A stretch of DNA of 12,861 bases, from the NCBI GenBank assembly GCA_019751575.1, contig JAIENF010000735.1, forward strand, positions 1 through 12,861. The letters are read 5' to 3'. The position numbers were made by a program, and so were the translations under genes. Positions 3,186 through 12,586 of the stretch are shown here, one piece after another. Within the stretch, counting starts at the first letter, position 1, and each line of letters starts with the position of its first letter. The DNA comes from Burkholderiales bacterium. Its GTDB lineage: Bacteria > Pseudomonadota > Gammaproteobacteria > Burkholderiales > CAIKXV01. The notes below the pieces were generated by a model that saw only the letters and a program-made list of their open reading frames with translations, ran no database searches and had not been told where the DNA came from.

Positions 3186-4070
3186 TTACCGCTTCAGCCG
3201 CGCCATCTCCCCCAGCACCGCGCACACCGAGCCGGTGTCCTGCTCCGCGCGGCCCTGCGCCATCGCCGCGTCGTACAGGATCGCCGACGTATTCAGCAGC
3301 GGTGTCGGACAGGCAACGGCCTTCGCCATCTCGCCGATGATGTGCATGTCCTTCTGCCAGACTGCGACCTTCATCGTCGCCGGGTACTCGTCCTTCACCA
3401 TCATCGGGCCGCGTACTTCGAACATGCGCGAGCCACCGGCACCGTTGCCGGCGACCTTCAGGATGGATGCCGGGTCCAGCCCCATCTTCATGCCGAACAC
3501 GAACGCCTCGGCAGCGGCCACGTTGTGGATCGCCACCAGCATGTTCGCAACCGCCTTCATCTTCATGCCGTTGCCGAACGGACCGACATGGTCCTGCTGG
3601 CGCGAGAAGCCGGCGAACACCGGGCGGATCCGTTCGGCAGCCACGGGGTCGCCGCTCATGTAGACCGACAGGTCGCCGCTGACCGCCTGTCCACCGGTCC
3701 CCGACAGCGGGCAGTCGAGCATCGTGATGCCGGCCGAGGCGAGCGCGTCGTGGCTGCGCTGCTTGTCCTCGATCGGCAGCGTGGACAGTTCGGCGACGAC
3801 GATGCCGCCGCGGGCGGCGTCGAGGATGCCCTCGGCGCCTGCAACCACGGCATCCAGCGCCGCGACGCTCGGCAGCGACAGCAGCAGCACATCGGCCTTT
3901 GCCGCAGCCTCCTTGGGCGAGGCGACCAGCATGACGCCTTTCGCCTTTGCCGCGGCCCTGGCCGCGTCGGATACGTCGAAGCCCAGCACGGTGAAGCCGT
4001 TCTTCACCAGGTTCGCCGAGATCGCCGAGCCCATGATTCCGAGCCCGATCATTGCCACGGTGTGCGCCAT
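3186..4070 (-). CDS. NAD(P)-dependent beta-hydroxyacid dehydrogenase (3-hydroxyisobutyrate dehydrogenase family)
   Basis: The 294-residue product belongs to the cytoplasmic family that oxidises short beta-hydroxyacids or reduces the matching semialdehydes (3-hydroxyisobutyrate, tartronate semialdehyde, L-threonate and relatives). The N-terminal Rossmann fold shows GLGIMGSAIS (residues 9-18), then the substrate-loop signature DCPLSGTGGQAVSGDL (119-134). The catalytic lysine is Lys172 in GNGMKMKAVAN, four residues before Asn176, and the conserved Lys240-Asp241 pair is present. Length is normal for the family. The start at 4070 is chosen because the protein then begins directly with the Rossmann strand, and GGGAGG stands five bases upstream; 34 extra codons are open before it but are Pro/Gly-rich and unlike the family. 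It is transcribed alone, divergently from the c-di-GMP gene. Lacking pathway neighbours, the exact substrate is open. Confidence 0.92.
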   Translation of the reverse strand: MAHTVAMIGLGIMGSAISANLVKNGFTVLGFDVSDAARAAAKAKGVMLVASPKEAAAKADVLLLSLPSVAALDAVVAGAEGILDAARGGIVVAELSTLPIEDKQRSHDALASAGITMLDCPLSGTGGQAVSGDLSVYMSGDPVAAERIRPVFAGFSRQQDHVGPFGNGMKMKAVANMLVAIHNVAAAEAFVFGMKMGLDPASILKVAGNGAGGSRMFEVRGPMMVKDEYPATMKVAVWQKDMHIIGEMAKAVACPTPLLNTSAILYDAAMAQGRAEQDTGSVCAVLGEMARLKR

Positions 4071-4332
4071 GCCTGCCTCCCATTCGCCGGTACGCGCTGG
4101 CTGCAGCGCGAAAGCGACGAGTCTAAGCGAAAGCAAAACGGGCGGGTCGTCTGGCCCGCCACCGCCCTCCATAGCAAGCCCCCCGCGGGCACGGCCGGAA
4201 AAAAGCGGTGCTGGCGGGCGCGAAAGTTCGGCGGTAAGCTGCCGATATACCTGTATCCGCCGGTCTGCCTGGGCCTCACCCCCGCCCGCGACTGCCCGGT
4301 CCCCGTCTTGTCATCCATAGCGAATCGGTTCG
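4071..4332. promoter_or_regulatory. Divergent intergenic region between dehydrogenase and c-di-GMP gene
   Basis: These 262 bases must hold both promoters, but no clear hexamer pair was found for either direction. A short inverted repeat, GGCGGG (4141-4146) and CCCGCC (4155-4160), is present. An in-frame TAG at 4318-4320 fixes ATG 4333 as the first possible start of the plus-strand gene. Confidence 0.45.
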
Positions 4333-6543
4333 ATGTCTCTGCGCGATCCCGAGAACACGCCGCGTGCCGGCCCGACCTCCTTCCGACGCCTGCGGCTCGC
4401 CGCCACGCAGCTGCACGCGGATGCAGTGCACTTGCCGCGCCGTGATGACGCGCTCCAGGTGGTCCCGGAGGCAATCCTGGTCACGGACAGCCGGCGCCGC
4501 ACGATCTACGTCAATCCGGCGTTCGAGGCGCTGACCGGATACGGCGCCGCCGACATGGTCGGCCAGACCTGCGCGATCCTGCAGGGTGAAGGCACGTCGG
4601 CGAAGACCCTGCAGGTGCTGGGCGCGGCGCTGGATGCCGGACGGCCGTTCAAGGGTGAACTGCTGAACTACCGGAAGGACGGCACGTCGTTCTGGAATGA
4701 ACTGACGGTCGTTCCCGTCTTCGACGCGCTGGGTGCGCTGGTCCAGTTCGTCGGCACGCAACGGGATGTCACCGCCCTGCGCGAGGCGAACGACCGACTG
4801 CTGATGGCCTCGCGCGTGTTCGAGGATGGCAGCGAGGGATTCATGATCGCCGACGCGGAGCGGCGGATCATCAAGGTCAATCCGGCGTTCACCGCGATCA
4901 CCGGCTATTCCGAGGACGAGGTGATCGGCCGCAATCCGAACATCCTGAGCTCGGGCCGGCACGATCCGGCCTTCTACCGCGCGATGTGGCAGGCGGTGGA
5001 CGAGGACGGTCAATGGCAGGGCGAGCTCTGGAACCAGCGCAAGGACGGCACGGTCTATCCGCAGCAGATGCTGCTGCGCCGCGTGGTCGACGGATCCGAC
5101 GGCGCCGCGAATTACGTGGCTTCGTTCAGCGACATCACGGATCGCAAGGCGGCGGAGGACAGTATCTGGCGGCTGTCCCGCTACGATCCGCTGACCGGGC
5201 TGCCGAACCGTGCATACCTGCAGGAACGCGCCGCGCATGCGCTCGACCGCTCGCGAAAGAGCGGAGAACCGTTGGCGGTGGTGTTCATCGACCTCGACCA
5301 GTTCAAGAACGTCAATGACTCGCTGGGCCATCGCATCGGCGACCGGCTGCTGGTGAAGGTCGCGGAAAGGTTCGAATCGACGCTGCGCGAGAACGATACC
5401 CTGGCGCGCATCGGCGGCGACGAGTTCGTGATGCTGCTCCCCGGTACCGACGCGCGCGCCGCATCGCGCGTGGTGCGCCGGCTGGTCGAACTCTCGGAGC
5501 AGCCGCTGCGTGTCGACGCCCATGAACTCACGATCACGCCATCGGCCGGGATCGCCATGTATCCGTTCGACGGACATGACTTCGATTCGCTCGCGACCTG
5601 CGCCGACGCCGCGATGTACCGTGCCAAGGACATCGGTCGCAGCACGTTCTGCTTCTTCACGCCCGAGATGCAGGCGCTGTCCGCGCGCGCCCTGGTGCTG
5701 GACAACCTGCTGCGGCGGGCGATCGAGCGCGGCGAGCTGAGCCTCGAGTACCAGCCCCAGTGCGCGCTGCACGATGGAGGGATCGTCGGCCTGGAGGCGT
5801 TGCTGCGCTGGCGCAACCCGGAACTCGGGCAGGTATCGCCGGGCGAGTTCATCCCGGTCGCAGAGGGCAGCGGGCTGATCATCCCGATCGGCGAATGGGT
5901 GTTGCGCACGGCACTGGCCCAGATGCGCGCCTGGCTCGATGCCGGCATCGCGCCGCCCGTCGTGGCGGTCAACCTGTCGATCGTGCAGTTCAGGCAGCCC
6001 GGCTTTCCAGACCACGTGCGCCGGATGCTGGACGAATGCGGAGTGGCGCCCGACCGCCTCGAGCTGGAGCTGACGGAAAGCGTCGCGTCCGACGATCCCG
6101 CCGGGGCGATGGCCGTGATGGAGGCGCTGCACGCGCACGGCATCCGGTTGTCGCTGGACGACTTCGGCACCGGCTATTCCTCGCTCAGCTACCTGAAGCG
6201 GTTCAAGGTCGGCAAGCTGAAGATCGATCGGTCGTTCGTCGCGAACGTGACCGACAGCGCGGCCGACCAGGCGATCGTCAGCGCGATCATCCGGCTCGCC
6301 AACGGCCTGGGGATGGCAACCCTTGCGGAGGGCGTCGAGACACCGGCGCAGCTGGATGCGCTGCGGTTCCGCGGCTGCGACCAGGTTCAGGGCTACTGGC
6401 TCACCCGCCCGTTTCCGCCCGCCGAGTTTCCCGCCTACCTCGAGGCGCACCATGCGAGCCGCCCGCTGCTGGGTCCCGACCTTCAGCGCTCGGGCTTCAC
6501 GGTCGTGCATTGGCGCGACCGCCTGCCCGAACGGCCGGCCTGA
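4333..6543 (+). CDS. LOV-PAS-GGDEF-EAL protein: putative light-sensing c-di-GMP cyclase/phosphodiesterase
   Basis: The 736-residue protein has no signal peptide or membrane segment and should be cytoplasmic. Domains: a PAS of LOV type (about 41-147), a second PAS (about 160-275, with GRNPNILSSGRHDPAFY), GGDEF (about 285-440) and EAL (about 455-710). GGDEF makes c-di-GMP; the motif at 361-365 is intact and REND at 352-355, five residues before it, fits the product-inhibition I-site. EAL degrades c-di-GMP; the expected residues are present: Glu488 (EALLRW), Asn547, Glu579, Asp609-Asp610 (DDFGTGYSS), Lys630, Glu666 and Gln686. Both activities may therefore work. The LOV call rests on Cys80 in GQTCAILQG and on Asn112, Asn122 and Gln143 at the spacing of known FMN-binding LOV domains. 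ATG 4333 is the first possible start, but no clear ribosome binding site precedes it. It stands alone, convergent with the CoA-transferase gene. Net activity and light response are inference. Confidence 0.93.
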   Translation: MSLRDPENTPRAGPTSFRRLRLAATQLHADAVHLPRRDDALQVVPEAILVTDSRRRTIYVNPAFEALTGYGAADMVGQTCAILQGEGTSAKTLQVLGAALDAGRPFKGELLNYRKDGTSFWNELTVVPVFDALGALVQFVGTQRDVTALREANDRLLMASRVFEDGSEGFMIADAERRIIKVNPAFTAITGYSEDEVIGRNPNILSSGRHDPAFYRAMWQAVDEDGQWQGELWNQRKDGTVYPQQMLLRRVVDGSDGAANYVASFSDITDRKAAEDSIWRLSRYDPLTGLPNRAYLQERAAHALDRSRKSGEPLAVVFIDLDQFKNVNDSLGHRIGDRLLVKVAERFESTLRENDTLARIGGDEFVMLLPGTDARAASRVVRRLVELSEQPLRVDAHELTITPSAGIAMYPFDGHDFDSLATCADAAMYRAKDIGRSTFCFFTPEMQALSARALVLDNLLRRAIERGELSLEYQPQCALHDGGIVGLEALLRWRNPELGQVSPGEFIPVAEGSGLIIPIGEWVLRTALAQMRAWLDAGIAPPVVAVNLSIVQFRQPGFPDHVRRMLDECGVAPDRLELELTESVASDDPAGAMAVMEALHAHGIRLSLDDFGTGYSSLSYLKRFKVGKLKIDRSFVANVTDSAADQAIVSAIIRLANGLGMATLAEGVETPAQLDALRFRGCDQVQGYWLTRPFPPAEFPAYLEAHHASRPLLGPDLQRSGFTVVHWRDRLPERPA

Positions 6544-8360: not shown

Positions 8361-8459
8361 GTTCTCACATGCGGAGATGGGGCATGACTGCCCCGGCTCC
8401 CGCAGCGCTTCCGCAGCAGCGTGTCGCGGAGGCCCACAAACACTGAGAGGATCCGTCCC

Positions 8460-9419
8460 ATGAAGCGTCTGATCGCGATCGTCGCGGCCGTTCTGGTCGC
8501 AGCGTCGGCATCCGTGTTCGCCCAGCAGAAGGCGTTCTCGATCGCCACCGGCACCACCGGCGGCGTGTACTTCCCGCTCGGCGGCGGGCTCGCGCAGATA
8601 CTGACCAAGCACGCCGGCATCAATGCCAACGTCGAGGCGACTGCCGGCTCGGCCGAGAACATGTTCCGCATCGCGCGTGGACAGGCAGACATCGCATTCG
8701 CCCAGACCGATGCGGCCTGGGATGCCTACTCGGGGCTGGACAAGTTCAGCGGCAACAAGGTCGGCGTGCGTGCGCTGATGGTGCTCTACCCGAACACGAT
8801 GCACCTGGTCACGATCGACGGCACCGGCATCAACACCATCGCCGACCTGCGCGGCAAGCGCGTGTCCACCGGCCCGGCGAACAGCGCGACCGAGATCATG
8901 GCGATCCGCGCGTTGCAGGCGGTCGGCATCGATGCCGACAAGGACATCAAGCGCGCCCGGCTGTCCCCGGCGGAATCGACGCGCGCGATCCGCGACCGGC
9001 AGCTCGATGCCTACTTCTTCGTCGGCGGCGTGCCGACGCCGGCGATCACCGACCTCGCCGCCAGCCCCGGCATCAAGTTCAAGCTGATCGACTACCAGAA
9101 AGAGGCACTGGCCGGCATGGTGAAGGTCACCGGGCCGATCTACGTGCCGATCACCATCCCGGCGAAGTCGTACCCCGGGCAGGACGCCCCGGTGCAGGCG
9201 GTGGCGGTATGGAACATCCTGGCGGTGCGTGACGACATGCCGGTGGAACTGGCCTACAACATCACCCGCGCCGCATACCTGAACCGCGCAGACCTGGCCG
9301 TGGTGCATCCCGAAGGGCGCAACATCGACACGAAGTGGCAGCTCAATGGTGCCGCGGTGATCCCCTTCCATCCTGGCGCAATGAAGTTCTGGGCTGAACA
9401 GGGCGTGAAGCTCAAGTAG
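8460..9419 (+). CDS. TAXI-family TRAP transporter solute-binding protein
   Basis: The 319-residue periplasmic protein delivers a ligand, in this family usually a carboxylate such as glutamate or another organic acid, to a fused TRAP permease. It has a signal peptide (MKRLIAIVAAVLVAASASVF, likely cut after AFA-type site at residue 21). Next come the TAXI hallmark FSIATGTTGGVYFPLGGGLA (26-45) and ATAGSAENMFRIARGQADIAFAQ, where the ligand is contacted. DLRGKRVSTGPANSATE in the middle and AYFFVGGVPTPAITDL later are further family segments. The start at 8460 is chosen for the signal peptide and for GAGAGG (8445-8450) nine bases upstream; an open frame extends back to an ATG at 8421 that would bury the signal sequence. 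It is the first gene of a two-gene operon, 16 bases before the permease gene. The ligand cannot be named. Confidence 0.95.
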   Translation: MKRLIAIVAAVLVAASASVFAQQKAFSIATGTTGGVYFPLGGGLAQILTKHAGINANVEATAGSAENMFRIARGQADIAFAQTDAAWDAYSGLDKFSGNKVGVRALMVLYPNTMHLVTIDGTGINTIADLRGKRVSTGPANSATEIMAIRALQAVGIDADKDIKRARLSPAESTRAIRDRQLDAYFFVGGVPTPAITDLAASPGIKFKLIDYQKEALAGMVKVTGPIYVPITIPAKSYPGQDAPVQAVAVWNILAVRDDMPVELAYNITRAAYLNRADLAVVHPEGRNIDTKWQLNGAAVIPFHPGAMKFWAEQGVKLK

Positions 9420-9435
9420 CCGGCGCGGGGGGCGC

Positions 9436-11583
9436 ATGGCAGGGGAAGCAGTGCAGGGCGGATCGGTGCCGCCCGCACGGGTCGGGGAAGCGCTCGTGCT
9501 GAACGAGGACTCCGAGCGCAAGGTCACCGAGCTGATCGAGGCGGAGGAAGGGGCGACCCACCGCTTCAGGGGCTGGCTCGGTGGCTTCATCACGATCGTC
9601 GCGATCGGCATCTCCCTGTTCCACCTGTACGGTGCGATCGAGGTGGTGCCGGCGCAGTTCTTCCGCACCGCGCACGTCGCGCTGATCCTGTTCCTGGCCT
9701 TCCTGCTGTTCCCGGTCGCGCGCCGCTACCGCAACCGGATGATGTGGTGGGACTGGCTGTTCGCGCTGGCCAGCCTGTCGACGCTGGTCTACGTGCTGGT
9801 CGAGGGCTGGGACTTCGTCTACCGCAACATCGACCCGACCACGCTCGACGTGGCGATGGGCTGGCTGCTCATCCTGCTGCTGCTCGAGGCGACCCGGCGC
9901 ACCACCGGCATGGTGATGGTGGTCGTGATCGCCGTGTTCCTGCTCTATGCGTTCATCGGCCCCTGGCTGCCGCAGCCATGGACCCATCGCGGCTACGACC
10001 TGGCCCGCCTGGCGGCGACGCTGTACATGACCGTCGACGGCGTGTACGGCACGGCGGTCGACGTATCGTCCTCGCTGATCATCCTGTTCTGCATCTACGG
10101 CGCCTTCCTGCAGTTCTCCGGCGCCGGGAAGTTCTTCCTCGATTTCTCCTTCGCGGTGATGGGCTCGAAGCCCACCAATGCCGGACGCACCGTGGTGCTC
10201 GCCTCGTTCCTGCTCGGCGGGCCGTCAGGGTCCGGCGTGGCGACGACGGTCACCATCGGCTCGGTCGCCTATCCGATGCTCAAGAAGGCCGGCTATCCGC
10301 GAAACCCGGCGGGTGGCCTGCTCGCGGCCGGCGGGCTGGGCGCGATCATCTCGCCGCCGGTGCTCGGCGCGGCGGCCTTCATCATCGCCGAATTCCTGCG
10401 CGTGTCCTACCTCGAAGTGATCCGGATGGCCATCGTGCCGACGGTGCTCTATTACCTGAGCCTGTTCCTGATGGTCGAGCTCGATGCGCGCAAGTACGGC
10501 AAGGACAATGCGACCGTCGACAACCCGTTGTCGGCGTGGCAACTCGCGAAGACGTTCTGGTTCCACTTCCTTTCGCTGGTCGCGATCATCCTGTACATGA
10601 TGCTCGGCTACACCCCCACGGCGGCGGTGTTCTGGGCGATCGTCACCGCCTTCGCGGTGAGTTTCCTGCACCGGGACTGCGCACTGCTGCCTTACGACCT
10701 GTTCCGGCTGCGCGGCCCGGTGTGGGCACACATCCGCGACTCGCGGCTGGCCGGCGCGCTGCGCGACGGCACGGTCGGCATGCTCAATGTCGGCGTCACC
10801 TGCGCGGCGGCGGGCATCATCGTCGGCATCGTCACGCTGACCGGGCTGGGCCTGAAGTTCAGCTCGATCGTCGTCGGTTACGCCGAAGTCATGGCCAGCG
10901 GCTTCGTCAGCGCCTTCGCGCTGGTCGGGATCGAGGCGAGCCAGGCCATGTTCGCCAGCACCCGGTTGCTGTTCACCACCATCTTCACCGCGCTGATCGT
11001 CTGGACCGTCGGCCTCGCGGTGCCGGTCACTGCGTCGTACATCATCTGCGCGGTGGTCGCGGCGCCGGCCCTGATCAAGCTCGGCGTGCCGGACTTCGCC
11101 GCCCACATGTTCATCTTCTACTACGCCGTGCTGTCGGAAGTCTCGCCGCCGACCGCGCTGTCGCCGTTCGCCGCAGCCGCCATCACCGGTGGAGACCCGT
11201 ATCGCACCACGCTGCAGAGCTGGAAGTACGTGATGCCGGCCTTCGTCGTGCCGTTCATGTTCGTGCTCGACCCGGCCGGGGTGGGGCTGCTGCTGAAGAC
11301 GCCGGTGGGCGGCGACTGGACGGACATCGCCGCGGTCGCGGTGTCGGCGACCATCGGAATCTGCGCGCTGGCGGCCGGCGCACAGGGCTGGCTGCTGATC
11401 CAGACCAGCCGGGTCGAGCGCTGGCTGCTGATCGTGGGTGGCGTGCTGCTGGTGTTCCTGTCGACGACCACCAACGTGCTGGGCGGTGCCTGCATCGTTG
11501 CGGCGGTGATCAGCCAGATCGTCAGGCGCCGGCGGCCGGGTGCAACTCCCGACGGCGGCGCGCCGCAGACGGCCGGCGCCTGA
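9436..11583 (+). CDS. TRAP transporter fused permease (small plus large membrane subunit)
   Basis: The 715-residue inner-membrane protein joins the four-helix small subunit and the twelve-helix large subunit of TRAP transporters in one chain, the usual partner of TAXI binding proteins. It should import the ligand with sodium or proton symport. A soluble N-terminal stretch of about 45 residues precedes the first helix (GGFITIVAIGISLF). The large-subunit signature is visible around residues 240-325: GSKPTNAGRTVVLASFLLGG, GPSGSGVATTVTIGS and GLLAAGGLGAIISPPVLGAA. A second conserved part is FFYYAVLSEVSPPTALSPFA-like sequence near residues 555-580. The C-terminal part after about residue 600 adds further hydrophobic segments. 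ATG 9436 follows a G run (9427-9432) and lies 16 bases after the binding-protein stop, so the two are cotranscribed. The long open frames opposite and in the +2 frame are shadows. Confidence 0.95.
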   Translation: MAGEAVQGGSVPPARVGEALVLNEDSERKVTELIEAEEGATHRFRGWLGGFITIVAIGISLFHLYGAIEVVPAQFFRTAHVALILFLAFLLFPVARRYRNRMMWWDWLFALASLSTLVYVLVEGWDFVYRNIDPTTLDVAMGWLLILLLLEATRRTTGMVMVVVIAVFLLYAFIGPWLPQPWTHRGYDLARLAATLYMTVDGVYGTAVDVSSSLIILFCIYGAFLQFSGAGKFFLDFSFAVMGSKPTNAGRTVVLASFLLGGPSGSGVATTVTIGSVAYPMLKKAGYPRNPAGGLLAAGGLGAIISPPVLGAAAFIIAEFLRVSYLEVIRMAIVPTVLYYLSLFLMVELDARKYGKDNATVDNPLSAWQLAKTFWFHFLSLVAIILYMMLGYTPTAAVFWAIVTAFAVSFLHRDCALLPYDLFRLRGPVWAHIRDSRLAGALRDGTVGMLNVGVTCAAAGIIVGIVTLTGLGLKFSSIVVGYAEVMASGFVSAFALVGIEASQAMFASTRLLFTTIFTALIVWTVGLAVPVTASYIICAVVAAPALIKLGVPDFAAHMFIFYYAVLSEVSPPTALSPFAAAAITGGDPYRTTLQSWKYVMPAFVVPFMFVLDPAGVGLLLKTPVGGDWTDIAAVAVSATIGICALAAGAQGWLLIQTSRVERWLLIVGGVLLVFLSTTTNVLGGACIVAAVISQIVRRRRPGATPDGGAPQTAGA

Positions 11584-11626
11584 TCCGGGCGACGGAGGGA
11601 CGGCTCCGGATGATGGGCGACCGCTG

Positions 11627-12586
11627 ATGGGCACCAGGGTGCGAGGTGCCGGCCTGCGTGCGGCCGCGCGCGTCGCCGCGGCCAGCGCCGCGCCCGGCGG
11701 TGCCGAACTCGACGAGTTCTGCGACGCGATCTGGCTCGAGGACGGCCTCGCGCGCAATTCGATCGAGAGCTACCGGCGCGACCTCGCCCAGCTGGCAGAC
11801 TGGCTGGCACAGCCGCCACGCTCGACCGCGCTGCTGGCGGCGGGGCGCGCCGACCTGCTCGACTACCTGGCGCACCGGGTACGCATCGGCGCGCGGTCGT
11901 CGAGCAGCGGCCGGTTGCTGTCGGCGATGAAGCGCTTCTATCGCTTCATGCTGGCGCGCGGCCGGATCCCGGTCGACCCGACCCTGGAGATCGACGCGCC
12001 GCGGCAGGTGCGGGCGCTGCCGCACAGCCTGGCCGAGGCGCAGGTCGAGGCGCTGCTCGAGGCGCCCGACATCCAGGACCCGGTCGGCCTGCGCGACCGG
12101 GCCATGCTCGAGACGCTCTACGCCACCGGCCTGCGGGTGACCGAGCTGGTGTCGTTGACACTGCCGCAGGTCAGCCGCGAGATGGGCGTGGTGCGCGTGG
12201 TCGGCAAGGGTTCGAAGGAGCGTCTGGTGCCGCTGGGCGAGGAGGCGCTGGCCTGGCTCGGGCGCTACCTCGCGCAGGGACGCGGTGCGATCCTCGGCGC
12301 GCGCCACAGCACGGCATTGTTCGTCACCGGGCGCGGCGAGGCGATGACCCGCCAGGCCTTCTGGTACCGGATAAAGCTGCACGGCCGCAGCGCCGGCATC
12401 ACGCAGGTGATCTCGCCCCATGTGCTTCGCCATGCATTCGCCACGCACCTGGTGAACCACGGTGCCGACCTGCGCGTGGTGCAACTGCTGCTCGGCCATG
12501 CGGACATCTCGACCACCCAGATCTACACCCATGTGGCGCGCGAGCGGTTGAAGGACGTGCATCGGAAGCACCACCCGCGCGGCTGA
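11627..12586 (+). CDS. xerD: Site-specific tyrosine recombinase XerD
   Basis: The 319-residue cytoplasmic protein should act with XerC at the chromosomal dif site to resolve chromosome dimers. The N-terminal core-binding domain (about 25-110) contains FCDAIWLEDGLARNSIESYR; the catalytic domain has Arg170 (ATGLRVTEL), Lys194 (GKGSKERLVPLG), His265 and Arg268 (HVLRHAFATHL), His291 (LGHADISTTQ) and Tyr300 (IYTHV). The spacing agrees with E. coli XerD to within one residue. HRKHHPRG at the end and RALPHSLAEAQVEALL after the linker favour XerD over XerC. It is about 20 residues longer than E. coli XerD because of an Ala/Arg-rich start. ATG 11627 lacks a good ribosome binding site; an in-frame ATG at 11540 would overlap the permease gene, and GTG 11639 is another option, so the start is uncertain. 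It may be read partly from the TRAP operon, 43 bases upstream. Confidence 0.93.
   Translation: MGTRVRGAGLRAAARVAAASAAPGGAELDEFCDAIWLEDGLARNSIESYRRDLAQLADWLAQPPRSTALLAAGRADLLDYLAHRVRIGARSSSSGRLLSAMKRFYRFMLARGRIPVDPTLEIDAPRQVRALPHSLAEAQVEALLEAPDIQDPVGLRDRAMLETLYATGLRVTELVSLTLPQVSREMGVVRVVGKGSKERLVPLGEEALAWLGRYLAQGRGAILGARHSTALFVTGRGEAMTRQAFWYRIKLHGRSAGITQVISPHVLRHAFATHLVNHGADLRVVQLLLGHADISTTQIYTHVARERLKDVHRKHHPRG

Follow-up and report, generated by a model that had tools for sequence, protein, structure and literature searches.

Does a bacterial enzyme of cyclic di-GMP (c-di-GMP) metabolism sense blue light through a LOV domain that lacks the phosphate-binding arginines of canonical LOV domains? 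This question is raised by a contig of 12,861 nucleotides from a Burkholderiales bacterium (JAIENF010000735.1, assembly GCA_019751575.1), called here the window. Its forward strand carries an open reading frame (ORF) of 736 residues (4333..6543) which, according to the ORF list and Pfam, has the layout PAS1(LOV)-PAS2-GGDEF-EAL. The original prediction, made on the letters of the DNA, had proposed that the segment 4453-4773, corresponding to residues 41-147 of this ORF, is a photoactive LOV domain. The analysis presented below favors, with a probability of about 0.7, a c-di-GMP enzyme whose first domain would be a LOV photosensor that binds flavin and belongs to a short-turn type devoid of Arg451 (numbering of oat phot1 LOV2), and which would be regulated by blue light. 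Published work is cited by PubMed Central accession, on the basis of excerpts of the papers.

LOV character of the first PAS domain

PAS1 (residues 40-150, 4450..4782 on the + strand, as are all features of this protein) was identified from profiles, an AlphaFold (AF2) model and a phylogenetic tree. The motif G77-Q-T-C80-A-I-L-Q84-G and the spacing of N112 (+32), N122 (+42) and Q143 (+63) are exactly those given by the original prediction. In the alignment, Cys80 (TGC, 4570..4572) occupies the position of the adduct-forming cysteine of helix Ealpha and is the predicted flavin-adduct residue. Asn112 and Asn122, at the two ends of NYRKDGTSFWN (4666..4698), are predicted to contact the flavin ring, and Gln143 (4759..4761), the equivalent of Gln513, is the predicted relay of the N5 proton. 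The phosphate-binding arginines of canonical LOV domains are absent: the Asn449 and Arg451 equivalents are replaced in Thr79-Cys80-Ala81 (4567..4575), and Gly97 (4621..4623) stands at the Arg467 position. PAS1 is therefore filed as a variant and not as a canonical LOV domain.

When PAS1 alone was scored against NCBIfam, the LOV models PRK13559 (104 bits), YtvA (102.9), PRK13557 (100.4) and LOV-HK (98.8) exceeded NifL (80.1) and the generic sensory_box model (74.7) by about 19-29 bits. None of the LOV equivalog cut-offs was reached, as expected for one domain compared with longer models. The opposite pattern was obtained with PAS2 alone, for which DibA scored 147.9 bits, sensory_box 77.3, NifL 73.6 and the LOV models 51-57. 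Compared with solved chains, PAS1 had its highest single-domain scores with LOV proteins (90.6 bits), ahead of NifL (73.6 for 9qq6 and 68.1 for 2gj3) and of the two domains of MmoS (60.5 and 50.9). The comparison of LOV and non-LOV PAS profiles that had been suggested as a check was thus carried out, and no non-LOV PAS family scored better. The AF2 model of PAS1, built from 53 sequences, has a mean predicted local distance difference test score (pLDDT) of 94.1 and LOV domains as top structural matches; because NifL structures lie near it as well, the fold alone does not decide.

Descent was examined with a tree of 102 rows and 88 columns, comprising 40 short-turn LOV domains, 36 long-turn LOV domains and 26 FAD-like (flavin adenine dinucleotide) PAS domains with Trp at position 97, in which the turn and marker columns were dropped. 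Similar rows were removed according to their identity, and the number of rows per group was limited. The references comprise NifL, MmoS and a single solved LOV domain (MrLOV), four further solved LOV references being omitted as their turns were not scorable after alignment. Many forks of this tree remain open, and bootstrap support had not yet converged. The split between LOV and FAD-like domains is nevertheless supported at 100/98, with PAS1 inside the LOV side and PAS2 grouped with NifL and MmoS.

The same residues recur together among relatives. A first homologue search gave 684 matches, of which 120 were listed (P0002, 99% identical, is evidently the protein of the window itself), and a scan of genome contigs confirmed at least 571 stretches, the best 80 being kept. 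Both samples were drawn with PAS1 or its close kin as query, and some rows are probably one gene seen twice, L039 and P0005 having an identical motif and turn string. The query, the listed homologues and the genome loci yielded 404 aligned domains, 398 of which were kept as PAS-type; these rows are related to one another. Cys is found in the best-matching domain of 102/121 proteins and 76/80 loci. Of the 186 domains that have the Cys in this column, 179 possess both Asn, versus 10 of the 212 that lack it, so that the Cys/Asn/Asn pattern is not due to chance. Where Ala follows the Cys, both Asn are found in 24/24 domains and Gln as well in 18/24; the loss of Arg451 is therefore not tied to a loss of photochemical residues. 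Taken together, the profile scores, the tree deprived of its diagnostic columns and the joint occurrence of Cys, Asn, Asn and mostly Gln bear out the assignment of PAS1 to LOV rather than to generic PAS. Judged from these alignments, PAS1 is a LOV domain by descent and by its photochemical residues, and its photoactivity is predicted to be likely.

Two variations of this motif can be mentioned. In the close relatives L040, P0008 and P0009, Arg replaces Gln84 (GRACGFLRG), while Cys, both Asn and Gln143 are kept. The genome of origin also encodes, at locus L002 (C722), a second LOV-like PAS domain with a short turn, in which Pro replaces the Cys (GRHPRFMQG).

A short-turn LOV type devoid of Arg451

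The substitutions T79, A81, A47 and G97 listed by the original prediction are all present, but their reading as a tuning of this single protein is only partly retained. Ala47, at the Asn414 position, does not discriminate: Asn occurs there in 0/121 best domains and 0/80 loci, and Gly in 45 of 49 scored domains having both the Cys and the Arg451 equivalents. T79 and A81 fit a whole LOV type. Gly97 alone, by its alignment, is unusual among close relatives, Arg being kept at this position by the nearest homologues P0003, P0004 and P0007.

The type in question is recognized by its Abeta-Bbeta turn. In PAS1 this turn (D-S-R-R-R-T, residues 52-57, 4486..4503) is three residues shorter than in most LOV domains bearing Arg451. 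Turn length could be scored in 142 of the 179 domains having Cys and both Asn (first set). Where Arg81, the Arg451 equivalent, is present, the turn is 2-3 residues longer in 79/87 domains and short in 8/87; where it is absent, the turn is short in 55/55 and long in 0/55 (Fisher 4e-31, not corrected for descent). Phe106 and Gly108 are each found in 58/63 short-turn domains versus 11/79 long-turn ones, and Arg97 in 49/63 short-turn domains. A second set, seeded with P0079 (901 matches, 120 listed, 114 new proteins, 255 domains), contains 87 short-turn LOV domains, 72 of them without Arg81, and 12 long-turn domains, 11 of them with it (Fisher 6e-7). As 15 short-turn domains of this set keep Arg81, the rule is strong but not strict. 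According to record titles, the 39 short-turn genome loci belong to Pseudomonadota (32), Verrucomicrobiota (5), Actinomycetota (1) and Planctomycetota (1). On these counts, T79 and A81 appear mostly as traits of a LOV type with a short turn and no Arg451, and not as private oddities. The top-scoring match to the P0079 query, P0122, is a histidine kinase whose record names [Myrmecia] bisecta, a green alga, as its source; it lies on a contig of 5.6 Mb.

The history of this association is less clear. In a tree of 101 rows, from which the turn and motif columns had been removed, one change of turn length is counted versus four of Arg81. A phylogeny-corrected test of Arg81 against the turn had no power (p = 1, with 3 independent pairs when restricted to starred branches and 4 otherwise), so that the association may reflect one ancient event. 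On the 102-row tree, 3 changes are needed for the short-turn group and 2 for the long-turn group; monophyly of the short-turn domains (approximately unbiased test, p 0.43) is compatible with this tree and not demonstrated by it. No solved short-turn LOV was found among the 60 best chains matched by a short-turn profile, and those LOV chains that are matched across the turn have a net excess of 1-3 residues, as read from match ranges only. Match ranges had also led to PAL (6hmj) being suspected as a characterized short-turn LOV; its own alignment shows a long turn and it was discarded. No published description of a short-turn or Arg451-less LOV was recognized either, a weak negative as most subscription journals and supplements lay outside the search.

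How might the flavin phosphate be held in such domains? In YtvA, Asp36 of the Abeta-Bbeta loop contacts Arg63, and N61, R63, Q66 and R79 hold the ribityl chain and the phosphate (PMC3836802). These four residues correspond to T79, A81, Q84 and G97 in PAS1, and the residue aligned with the turn Asp is Asp in 78/91 long-turn domains. The turn of PAS1 carries Arg54-Arg55-Arg56. Arg is found at position 55 in 99/127 short-turn domains without Arg81 versus 12/23 short-turn LOV domains with it, and in 15/81 FAD-like and 18/211 other short-turn PAS domains. Arg55 could accordingly be proposed as a replacement phosphate contact for Arg451. Within the short-turn LOV domains the evidence for compensation is weak, with p 0.018 for 150 rows and 0.05 for 119 rows below 80% identity, and fades upon thinning (p 0.44 on 36 rows below 60%, 1.0 on 7 rows below 50%). 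Seventeen of the 127 short-turn Arg81-less domains also lack Arg97, and 6 of these 17 lack Arg55 as well. In PpSB1-LOV, mutation of two phosphate-side arginines led to a 280-fold faster recovery, as cited in PMC5314338.

A wider proposal can be put forward tentatively, the odds being somewhat against it. The short-turn domains would form a second broad photoactive LOV lineage, without the Asp(turn)-Arg451 pair and the three-residue extension, in which a turn arginine (Arg55 here) takes over. This lineage would link FAD redox PAS domains and canonical LOV domains in form, would often drive c-di-GMP enzymes and would be largely excluded from motif-filtered censuses. The last point can be illustrated with published filters, namely the Gx(N/D)C(R/H)(F/I)L(Q/A) motif of the LadC census (PMC10396304), the 8-of-9-residue rule of PMC9098866, which was written for finding Gln-less LOV domains, and the GXNCRFLQG screen of PMC12202551. 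In the first set the LadC motif accepts 2/63 short-turn versus 59/79 long-turn domains, and the 8-of-9 rule 8/63 versus 78/79; in the second set the figures are 3/87 versus 7/12 and 12/87 versus 11/12. PAS1 itself, with GQTCAILQ, departs from the GXNCRFLQ consensus, a screening rule and not an ancestry test, and has 6 of the 9 residues of PMC9098866. Short-turn domains may well be captured by the sequence clustering used in PMC10468136. Should they be photoactive, LOV photoreceptors have been undercounted, and natural light-controlled signalling proteins may have been as well. A LOV photocycle would then be possible without an arginine listed in PMC10468136 among the conserved residues for flavin mononucleotide (FMN), these domains would provide a natural series in which the choice of flavin and the speed of recovery could be tuned, and blue light would be tied to c-di-GMP in bacteria carrying photosynthesis genes.

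Output domains, proposed mechanism and rival explanations

Downstream of PAS1, PAS2 (residues 157-276, about 4801..5160) belongs by profiles and tree to the NifL/MmoS FAD-like lineage and has the FAD-type Trp219 and Asn234. The chain may therefore hold two flavin sensors, with light and redox inputs, a possibility that the original prediction had not considered. Against these FAD-type residues stands the precedent of PA0285, whose constructs, whichever PAS domain they carried, did not bind FAD, although its PAS2 was modelled there on NifL (PMC10874727). The GGDEF domain (residues 283-437, 5179..5643) has an intact GGDEF motif (361-365) and upstream RxxD by Pfam and motif check. The motifs of the EAL domain (residues 459-693, 5707..6411) are likewise intact, with E488, N547, E579, D609-D610, K630 and E666, which we take to be catalytic. 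The full-length AF2 model has a pLDDT of 87.7 and a predicted template modelling score of 0.55, the latter leaving the interdomain layout uncertain. GGDEF and EAL occur together in 28/63 short-turn versus 8/79 long-turn proteins, by a crude motif match in a set picked by similarity to this protein.

A LOV domain and intact GGDEF and EAL motifs are thus found in one chain, as in the SL2-type LOV-GGDEF-EAL enzymes. SL2, the M. loti protein and LadC, described next, are the functional precedents for the favored reading. SL2 of Synechococcus elongatus, known here by description, hydrolyses c-di-GMP in its blue-light state and has LOV upstream of GGDEF-EAL, but it is reported to place two arginines on the FMN phosphate (PMC8846402), both absent here, where PAS2 is additional. 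The proteobacterial LOV-GGDEF-EAL protein of M. loti, WP_140774521.1, differs by its missing Gln; light lowered the cyclase output of its LOV-GGDEF truncation, as described in PMC9098866. LadC (8c05) has exactly one LOV and one GGDEF and a strict motif (PMC10396304), in contrast to the PAS2, EAL and divergent motif seen here; its net match length of +3 suggests a long turn. The LOV-related PASd of RmcA, a light-affected phosphodiesterase of P. aeruginosa, lacks by description the Cys (PMC8846402) that PAS1 possesses. Finally, the DibA phosphodiesterase model (NCBIfam NF045675) resembles the PAS2-GGDEF-EAL part, matching residues 150-698 with 668.7 bits, below its curated cut-off of 980, and leaves out PAS1.

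On the favored reading, blue light would drive a Cys80-flavin C4a adduct and the N5 protonation would be read by Gln143. The signal would then travel via the beta-sheet and helix 147-165 to PAS2 and the linker, altering the GGDEF/EAL output, most likely the EAL phosphodiesterase rather than the cyclase; PAS2 may contribute a redox input. The flavin would probably be held by its ring and ribityl chain, its phosphate being met by Arg55 and neighbors of the shortened turn, or loosely bound. With such a hold, FMN would be expected to be preferred less strongly, dark recovery to be faster, or both.

The absence of both phosphate arginines also suggests a degenerate LOV, in which fold and Cys persist as a dimerization or relay module and the flavin is too weakly bound in the cell. 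The retention of Arg97 in the three nearest homologues points the same way, as does the divergence of the LOV domain, 59-64% identical to that of three same-genus orthologues versus 77-85% for EAL; a natural LOV was moreover purified with only about 10% flavin, even though its arginines are kept (PMC5314338). This explanation is nevertheless judged unlikely, since C80, N112, N122 and Q143 are all retained and since, of the 17 short-turn domains without both arginines (PAS1 and P0002 included), 11 have Arg55 and 13 have Gln143.

Somewhat less credit is given to a redox or thiol sensor that would bind FAD as in NifL and MmoS, the Cys serving redox chemistry instead of or besides photochemistry. 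NifL PAS1 and MmoS PAS-A do share with PAS1 its fold and short Abeta-Bbeta turn, the aromatic-x-Gly string (F106-x-G108) is common to FAD-type PAS domains, and a single origin has been reported for FMN and FAD PAS domains (PMC10468136). These two domains, however, have no adduct Cys, and the primary FAD determinant, the Falpha Trp (PMC10468136), aligns with Gly97 in PAS1 and is found in PAS2 as W219. The position of PAS1 with LOV in the tree and the rarity of both Asn in Cys-less domains argue further against this reading. An ordinary PAS domain with a coincidental Cys would agree with Pfam, which reports on PAS1 only PAS_9 (45-148) and other generic PAS families. Since PAS_9 takes in LOV domains (PMC8846402), this label alone is neither for nor against LOV. 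The LOV profile scores, the 100/98 split, the Cys-Asn-Asn co-occurrence and the frequency of the Cys in best-matching domains and loci make such a coincidence very improbable.

Distribution and neighborhood of the gene

The host genome (84% complete, 807 contigs) contains two adjacent Photo_RC matches, which probably represent the L/M subunits of purple bacteria, and two matches to the FAD-binding domain of photolyase/cryptochrome; no BLUF match was found in this 84% of the genome. Photo_RC is present in 11/11 genomes of the genus, a finding counted in favor of the blue-light reading. Four of these 11, host included, have a relative that is at least 65% identical along almost the full protein; G005 and G008 show a 44% match limited to residues 130-709. 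In 6/11 genomes the dehydrogenase-like and CoA-transferase-like genes that flank the LOV gene adjoin without it, their match ends lying about 15-210 bases apart. The comparison of these loci therefore indicates either that the gene was inserted at one site as an accessory element or that it was lost there repeatedly. In G002, an ORF that we assume to be MFS-like lies beside the CoA-transferase instead of the dehydrogenase-like neighbor.

Between the window and the three other carriers (L038-L040), identity amounts to 90-95% for the dehydrogenase, CoA-transferase and VOC-like proteins, to 87-96% for the partly covered TAXI-like protein and, for the TctC-like protein, to 90-94% in two carriers and 40% in L039. 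The LOV protein is only 65-70% identical, an observation that would fit fast divergence or replacement by a relative. The dehydrogenase-like gene (3186-4172) is on the - strand in the window and L039, and on the + strand in L038 and L040. In the latter two it directly follows the TctC-like gene; in the window the ORFs 644-1642 and 2103-2831, presumably PEP-CTERM-like, lie between. No tRNA was found in the window. Its distal part carries what we take to be genes for a TAXI-type binding protein and, after it, a large TRAP-like permease (8421-11583), and then one for a presumed XerC/D-like recombinase (11540-12586).
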